Assembly (NCBI GenBank): GCA_021738565.1
Contig: JAIPBT010000019.1
Coordinates: 1-64,000, forward strand
Direction: 5' to 3'
Origin: Bacteroidales bacterium
Lineage (GTDB): Bacteria > Bacteroidota > Bacteroidia > Bacteroidales > GCA-2748055
Length of the DNA stretch: 64,000 nt
Shown: one piece after another, positions 16,988-18,160 of the stretch
Numbering within the stretch: the stretch's first letter is position 1
Layout of the letters: every line of letters starts with the position of its first letter
The notes under the pieces: generated by a model
What the model was told of the DNA's origin: nothing
Database searches by the model: none
What the model saw: only the letters and a program-made list of their open reading frames with translations
Translations under genes and position numbers: made by a program

Positions 16988-17245
16988 TTAAAACCCGTAT
17001 TTTCTTCTGAATGCAGGGTAAACTTCATCCCTGATCCAGGCAAATTCCGGCTCAGCTTCCAGGATTTTCAGATATACCCTGTTGGCATCTGCAAAAAGTT
17101 CTGATTCAATGTAAGCATCTGCAAGATCGGATAAAGTATTAAGGTGCATCCGGGGATTGTCCCAGACAACCGAAACACCGGTCAGAATATACACCAGGTG
17201 GCCCAGCCATAAGATCATTATCGTCAGTGCGATCAGAATTCCCAT
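16988..17245 (-). CDS. 85-residue hybrid ORF at the end of the carotenoid cluster
   Basis: An ATG-started 85-residue ORF overlapping the cruF stop by 13 bp. The first ~35 residues (IMILWLGHLVYILTG, then WDNPRMHL) resemble the opening of CrtW-type carotenoid ketolases and related fatty-acid desaturases, but the histidine motifs that should follow are absent. The rest (LADAYIESELFADANRVYLK, then ILEAEP) looks like a single TPR-like helical pair. I infer an in-frame deletion or fusion leaving a non-enzymatic product, but it could be a genuine small membrane protein. Confidence 0.45.
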   Translation of the reverse strand: MGILIALTIMILWLGHLVYILTGVSVVWDNPRMHLNTLSDLADAYIESELFADANRVYLKILEAEPEFAWIRDEVYPAFRRKYGF

Positions 17246-17901
17246 AAAACCTTAATATTCATCAAGACACTCAATAGTATAAAAAATACCAGCTGTACAA
17301 AAAACAGCGGGACCGCAATTTTGTTTTTCCGGTTCACGAACCCGGTGAAATCGGCAAACCAGATCAAAAGGAATGAGATCACCAGCCATGCAAGATAATT
17401 CTGCATGGGGACAGGTCCACCCCAGTCCCACATATCCATATCAATGGCTGCCGGTTCAAGGGCAAAATCGTAAATTACCATGGCAATGGCCGCGAACAAT
17501 ACCCTGTAATACCTTTTATCAAAGTACCTGGATGTGATCACAAGGCTAGAATAGACAAGCATTAACCAGTTCACCCCGATCATAACGGGTGTATGGAATA
17601 TTTCAGGCCCGAGTGTTGCTCCATATTCATAACTTCCAAAAATAAGTCCTGTATTCACTCCCACCATTTCAACAATTATCCCCGCGAAGAAAATAACCAG
17701 GGCCTTCCATGCAAACCCATAATCCAGTCTGCCATGGTAAATGAAAAGAAGAGTGATGTTCAGAAGGAGGTTGAGTGGAACAAGTTTGATGAACAGGTCC
17801 CTTGTAGCCGGGATGATCAATCCTGCCACACCAACAGCATAAAAAATTGCCAGGTATGGAACTGCATTGAATGCTCTTATTTTTTGAATCAGCTTCTTCA
17901 T
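17233..17901 (-). CDS. cruF: Carotenoid biosynthesis protein, CruF family (carotenoid 1',2'-hydratase)
   Basis: A 222-residue polytopic membrane protein with about seven hydrophobic segments. Family marks include GVNTGLIFGSYEYG, PVMIGVNW and the acidic MVIYDFALEPAA, then WDWGGPVP, typical of the CruF/bisanhydrobacterioruberin hydratase family. Members hydrate the psi-end of acyclic or monocyclic carotenoids. It lies four bases after the CrtD remnant and diverges from crtI. If active it would act with a CrtD-type desaturase, which here is broken. Confidence 0.8.
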   Translation of the reverse strand: MKKLIQKIRAFNAVPYLAIFYAVGVAGLIIPATRDLFIKLVPLNLLLNITLLFIYHGRLDYGFAWKALVIFFAGIIVEMVGVNTGLIFGSYEYGATLGPEIFHTPVMIGVNWLMLVYSSLVITSRYFDKRYYRVLFAAIAMVIYDFALEPAAIDMDMWDWGGPVPMQNYLAWLVISFLLIWFADFTGFVNRKNKIAVPLFFVQLVFFILLSVLMNIKVLWEF

Positions 17902-17905
17902 TGAA

Positions 17906-18160
17906 TCAATGGTAATGTTTTACAATCTGCTGATCAACAATCTTTGCAGATGCCAGGCAAAGCGGTATCCCACCCCCGGGATGCACACTGCCACCTACAA
18001 AATAGAGTCCGCGAAAATCCTTCCATTTCAACTGTCCCATTTTCCCGCCGGGATGGGCAGACTGTTCAAAAACAGTTACCTCGTGTCCCCTCATTCTAAG
18101 ACGTATGGCACTCGCCAGTCCACCAATTCCTGATCCTATTACAGAAATATATAATTTCAT
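17906..18160 (-). pseudogene. Internally deleted carotenoid desaturase (CrtD-like) remnant
   Basis: An 84-residue ORF. Residues 1-47 are the FAD-binding start of a CrtI/CrtD-type desaturase ([20 protein letters not shown], then [12 protein letters not shown]). Residues 48-84 are the extreme C-terminus of the same family ([18 protein letters not shown], then ASAKIVD). Around 400 central residues are missing, with the frame preserved across the joint. [14 protein letters not shown] is typical of the CrtD branch rather than phytoene desaturase. The position next to cruF is where crtD would be expected. It cannot be a working enzyme. An assembly collapse is an alternative explanation. Confidence 0.75.

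Follow-up and report, generated by a model that had tools for sequence, protein, structure and literature searches.

Do two short open reading frames (ORFs) on either side of an intact cruF record the decay of carotenoid genes, an error of assembly or the making of small proteins? They lie in a 64,000-nucleotide stretch of a Bacteroidales genome (hereafter the window; genome G000, a draft of 3.98 Mb in 83 contigs, 98.47% complete). The order on the minus strand is the 84-aa ORF (17906-18160), cruF, the 85-aa ORF (16988-17245) and gltX, and a divergent crtI-crtB-crtYcd set adjoins (Table 1). The genomes used for comparison were G003 (locus L031, JARGFP010000022, Bacteroidales bacterium isolate C14-09) and G002 (locus L032, CAKZNC010000217) from the same genus, and G014 and G006 from the same family. 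Intact genes in the same order as the remnants of the window were found in G003, G002 and G006. The window CruF was 74, 67, 54 and 50% identical to those of G003, G002, G014 and G006 taken together. The first-pass annotation had placed both short ORFs correctly and had called cruF, crtI, crtB and crtYcd intact, which was borne out by reading frames open over their full length. The window gave no match to Rfam at gathering thresholds.

Table 1. Features of the carotenoid locus in the window, with the comparisons on which they are based.
Feature	Position	Strand	Remarks
gltX, intact, next downstream on the same strand	15405..16940	-	
TPR', last 50 or so codons, with stop, of the gene preceding gltX	16988..17140	-	TPR comparison
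Joint 2, bases fitting crtW and the TPR gene alike	17138..17153	-	comparison with relatives
crtW' N-terminal part, about 33 codons, without histidine motif	17147..17245	-	CrtW comparison
cruF, intact carotenoid 1,2-hydratase, 222 aa	17233..17901	-	open throughout
crtD' C-terminal part with stop	17906..18010	-	84% to G002 CrtD 455-491
Joint 1, 15 bases fitting both ends of the 1221-bp deletion	18011..18025	-	comparison with relatives
crtD' N-terminal part, codons 1-50, GSGIGG motif kept	18011..18160	-	76% to G002 CrtD 1-50
Inverted repeat TAAACAA-N13-TTGTTTA between crtD' and crtI, candidate operator	18171..18197	.	shared with some relatives
crtI, intact	18246..19733	+	
crtB, intact	19708..20547	+	
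crtYcd-type lycopene cyclase, intact	20686..21417	+	

The 84-aa ORF is a single open frame made of CrtD codons 1-50 and the last 34 or so, and the earlier reading of it as an in-frame join of the N- and C-terminal ends of CrtD was confirmed by comparison with the two ends of the G002 protein. Its source is CrtD, the 1-hydroxycarotenoid 3,4-desaturase (NF042421), from which it differs in the absence of about 407 middle residues. Full-length CrtD proteins of 487-491 residues were encoded at the same place in all four relatives, and the loss was identical (1221 bp) when measured against each of them. The NCBIfam model NF042421 matched the 84-aa ORF in two stretches with 75.4 bits, short of the cut-off of 500 and of its whole-protein criterion, while the intact CrtD of G002 scored 558 bits. 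Both FAD motifs, the N-terminal GxGxxG (GSGIGG) and the C-terminal GGGIP-type, are present in the stub, and we take both to line the FAD site. Judging from its sequence, the ORF is not expected to be a functional CrtD. A search of the whole G000 genome (98% complete) found neither a second crtD nor the missing middle part. The six matches obtained were its CrtI, two short pieces of the stub and three partial matches in other flavoprotein-like frames, and three more weak matches appeared at E up to 10.

The 85-aa ORF was found to be a fusion of about 33 crtW codons with the last 50 or so codons of the TPR gene that precedes gltX in relatives. Its start matched the CrtW of G002 (72% over 36 residues of the latter), and from about codon 36 it matched the C-terminal end of the G003 TPR protein (53% over 51 residues of the latter). 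The closest known counterparts of its two halves are the CrtW-type ketolase (NF045690) and the TPR protein of the cluster. Compared with these, the window ORF has no histidine motif (HDAMH, HWDHH and EHH as read in relatives), since crtW' ends before the first one, and only the last 50 or so TPR residues are left. With NF045690 as their best match, the CrtW proteins of the relatives scored 246 and 248 bits where the cut-off is 350, so their ketolase activity is itself a prediction. The first-pass annotation had described this ORF as a CrtW-type start lacking the histidine motifs. The start and the motif loss stood, but the ORF is not merely a CrtW remnant. With the CrtW half alone recognised, it had gone unnoticed that the TPR gene is affected too, and that plsC and GT2 are lost as well if the layout was that of G003.

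G003 and G006 share the layout crtD-cruF-crtW-plsC-GT2-TPR-gltX, in which GT2 is CruG/HpnB-like, while G002 has crtD-cruF-crtW-TPR-gltX without plsC and GT2. Measured on the layout of G003 the second loss spans 3363 bp, and on that of G002 it spans 1309 bp. As read from the sequence, crtW and the TPR gene have lost the greater part of their length, and plsC and GT2 are gone if the ancestor had the G003 layout. The window grouped with G003 in a tree of seven proteins (76% support) and on three non-carotenoid proteins (63%; G003 lacks data for two of the proteins). The layout before the second deletion may have been G002-like or G003-like. No other copy of crtW or of the TPR gene was found in the whole G000 genome, and a GT2 search gave two partial matches only (29 and 42%).

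TPR proteins were encoded near cruF in 13 of 47 other loci (L031, L032, L034-L038, L041, L045, L051, L053, L054 and L067) and were accompanied by plsC and GT2 in all but L032. The TPR protein near cruF may belong to carotenoid modification or transport. Further differences were seen beyond gltX. In G002, G003, G006 and L037, TatD-like and ThiF-like genes separate gltX from a gene for an outer-membrane protein. These were missing from the window (15268-15404) and likewise from L035, and a search without positive control found no ThiF relative in G000.

These 47 loci came from a contig scan with an alignment as query; cruF alone as query gave none. Full-length crtD was present in 34 of them, including the four relatives, whereas 11 had none in the stretch covered. 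In the two loci with partial crtD the cause was technical, a run of 100 N in L037 and a contig end in L045. L037 (genome G042) had been considered as a second, independent crtD-cruF deletion and was rejected, the joint being the run of N. None of the 47 other loci carried an internally shortened crtD, which was seen in the window alone among the loci examined. In a search of 28 genomes of the family, the window's own included, CrtD scored above the cut-off in ten; two further genomes gave nearly full-length matches (485 and 444 bits), and many of the remaining genomes gave no CrtD match. A strong partial match in G043 stops at a contig end. CruF was likewise found in 10 of the 28 genomes, indicating that the pathway is patchy in the family and its loss nothing rare.

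An orthologue that is intact in the same gene order, together with an internal loss, marks a pseudogene formed by deletion, and this is the situation found in the window. We then compared the two sides of each joint, with the repeats read from the sequences of the relatives and not from the window's own sequence before the loss. The fractions of site pairs given here are the best of four offsets for joint 1 or of seven for joint 2 and hence somewhat flattering. For joint 2, the two sites in crtW and the TPR gene of G002 agreed in 13 of 15 bases, which 7.9e-6 of all site pairs matched, and the best 15-base match was 11/15 in G006 and 9/15 in G003 (5e-3 of site pairs). For joint 1, agreement was 11 of 15 bases with the N side taken from G002 and the C side from G003, or 10 of 12 at the best offset (8.4e-5), and the two sides within G002 or G003 agreed in 9/15 and 8/12 (about 4e-3). 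Pairing the N side of G003 with the C side of G002 gave 7/12, and within G014 or G006 agreement was at the chance level (5/15 and at most 5/12). G002 and G006 would thereby lend good support to a repeat at joint 2, where the match in G003 is weak, and G002 and G003 modest support to one at joint 1. The joint sites encode similar words (KDYR or KNYR against KDFH; WMYLH against WLYLN), which places the repeats in frame.

Deletions between short repeats occur without RecA. We infer the repeat mechanism, as well as the reality and recency of the deletions. One deletion would have taken 1221 bp out of crtD, and the other would have begun at about crtW codon 33 and stopped close to where the TPR gene ends, both probably between short direct repeats. 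The second would measure 1.3 kb from a G002-like start that lacked plsC and GT2, or 3.4 kb from a G003-like one that still had both. The arrangement crtD'-cruF-crtW'::TPR' followed by gltX remains, with CruF intact. In our judgement the locus probably decayed through two deletions, with short direct repeats as their most likely end points, which left crtD' and crtW'::TPR' as stubs, and the loss is most likely ordinary pathway decay.

The same joints would also be seen if the cells kept full genes and the assembler, or the consensus, had joined across short repeats. The genome is a draft in 83 contigs and two similar joints lie less than 1 kb apart. Assemblers, however, are misled by repeats of about k-mer length, 21 bases or more, and the presumed repeats at these joints do not exceed some 15 bases and are inexact in the relatives. 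The missing middle parts of crtD, crtW and the TPR gene were found nowhere in the whole G000 genome, and such an artefact is thus very unlikely. That two in-frame joints flank one intact gene is nevertheless mildly suspicious, and selection might account for it, either because the stubs serve as small proteins or because a frameshift would lower expression of the downstream cruF and gltX. Both stub frames are open with start codons, both FAD-site motifs are retained in the crtD stub, and the divergent region has its inverted repeat unbroken. Among the 67 exact repeats of at least 8 bp lying at least 300 bp apart in four intact crtD genes, however, 34 were in frame, as were 150 of 293 exact 7-bp repeats. 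With about half of the crtD repeats in frame regardless of selection, a joint within crtD would keep the frame roughly every second time and is unremarkable when it does. The odds that both joints would be in frame are 1/9 by uniform frame and about 1/4 at the crtD rate, a rate taken from crtD and not from the crtW-TPR pair. A keyword search of the literature found no in-frame fusions by deletion, from which we do not claim their absence from print.

Substitution patterns were equally compatible with selection and with recent loss. Between the window and G002 or G003, pN/pS was 0.18-0.20 (crtD N-terminal part), 0.12-0.19 (crtD C-terminal part), 0.23-0.37 (crtW) and 0.32-0.35 (TPR), which resembles the values of the same segments between G002 and G003 (0.17, 0.21, 0.25 and 0.32, respectively); the intact neighbours ranged from 0.10 (crtI) to 0.31 (cruF). 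Synonymous sites are saturated, however, and recent deletions would be expected to leave this same pattern. For the 84-aa ORF, AlphaFold2 prediction drawing on 18 of the 34 full-length CrtD proteins gave weak models, the best of five with pLDDT 75.3 and pTM 0.60 and the other four with pLDDT 53.5-57.6. Foldseek returned nothing at E 0.001 or better; the best match was the carotenoid desaturase 4rep (E 0.01), and matches mostly covered the first 36-50 residues. Structure prediction thus gave no support for a compact small protein, and the earlier suggestion that the stubs may be retained as small proteins was neither demonstrated nor refuted, recent loss fitting the substitutions equally well. 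Selection on the stubs or on their frame seems unlikely, and we consider it highly improbable that the 84-residue protein brings together the two halves of the FAD site, which is split in the CrtI/CrtD fold, and has been retained as a very small partner of CruF or CrtI that binds flavin or membranes.

The inverted repeat between crtD and crtI, TAAACAA-N13/14-TTGTTTA, was found in the window and in L031, L032, L033 and L037, which were the only five matches in 880,089 bases scanned, and in none of 50 mononucleotide shuffles of the window. The exact pattern was absent from L034, L036 and L038, which likewise have divergent crtI and crtD. Its intact state in the window fits recent loss. Several other features were observed near the cluster. 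Two short dispersed repeats lie at window 20541-20600, followed by the palindrome CCCGATAGCTATCGGG, and at 26756-26906. The former matched three places in G003 and two in G001 and the latter at least ten places in G003, the G003 counts being lower bounds as 40 of 105 candidates were scored. Near the G003 cluster, L018 (14521-14619) contains the C-terminus of crtYcd a second time, as a stretch of 33 codons (73% to the CrtYcd of the window). A frame resembling CrtI is broken up in L064, giving one ORF of 257 aa and one of 252 aa (29 and 23%, respectively, against the window's CrtI).

The closest known systems are the flexixanthin- and myxol-type clusters of Bacteroidota, and in the reports on Algoriphagus (PMC10784355) and Nonlabens (PMC11855829) they have crtI, crtB, a lycopene cyclase, cruF and crtD in common with this locus. 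The Algoriphagus cluster additionally shares crtYcd and crtW; its flexixanthin gene sets with cruF, crtD, crtYcd and crtW are described there as predicted by homology (PMC10784355). By comparison, crtD and crtW are broken in the window, and its relatives add plsC, GT2 and TPR genes. In the Nonlabens study, lycopene-making Escherichia coli with crtY and cruF, without crtD, produced mainly 1'-hydroxy-gamma-carotene, and adding crtD led to 1'-hydroxytorulene (PMC11855829).

As neither a full crtD nor a full crtW was found elsewhere in G000, the late pathway looks broken, in keeping with the first-pass annotation, the lost steps being 3',4'-desaturation and 4-ketolation. Glycosylation and acylation are perhaps lost too, if plsC and GT2 perform them in relatives. 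That annotation had further proposed that no hydroxylated, desaturated product would be made. Desaturation was indeed lost with crtD, but the absence of hydroxylation is probably wrong because cruF is intact. With crtI, crtB and crtYcd intact as well, the Nonlabens reconstitution leads us to predict a hydroxylated carotenoid. By analogy with that system the pigment would most likely be 1'-hydroxy-gamma-carotene with some gamma- or beta-carotene; the lycopene cyclase is crtY in Nonlabens and of the crtYcd kind in the window, so the product stays a prediction.

The value of this case is chiefly for annotation, and it cautions readers of genomes against concluding much about retained function from an in-frame joint in a gene half of whose short repeats are in frame. 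The organism of the window probably makes a simpler pigment than its relatives. In one lineage, the tail of a carotenoid pathway would be in the course of being lost while the CruF hydration step is kept, which yields a testable prediction of the pigment.
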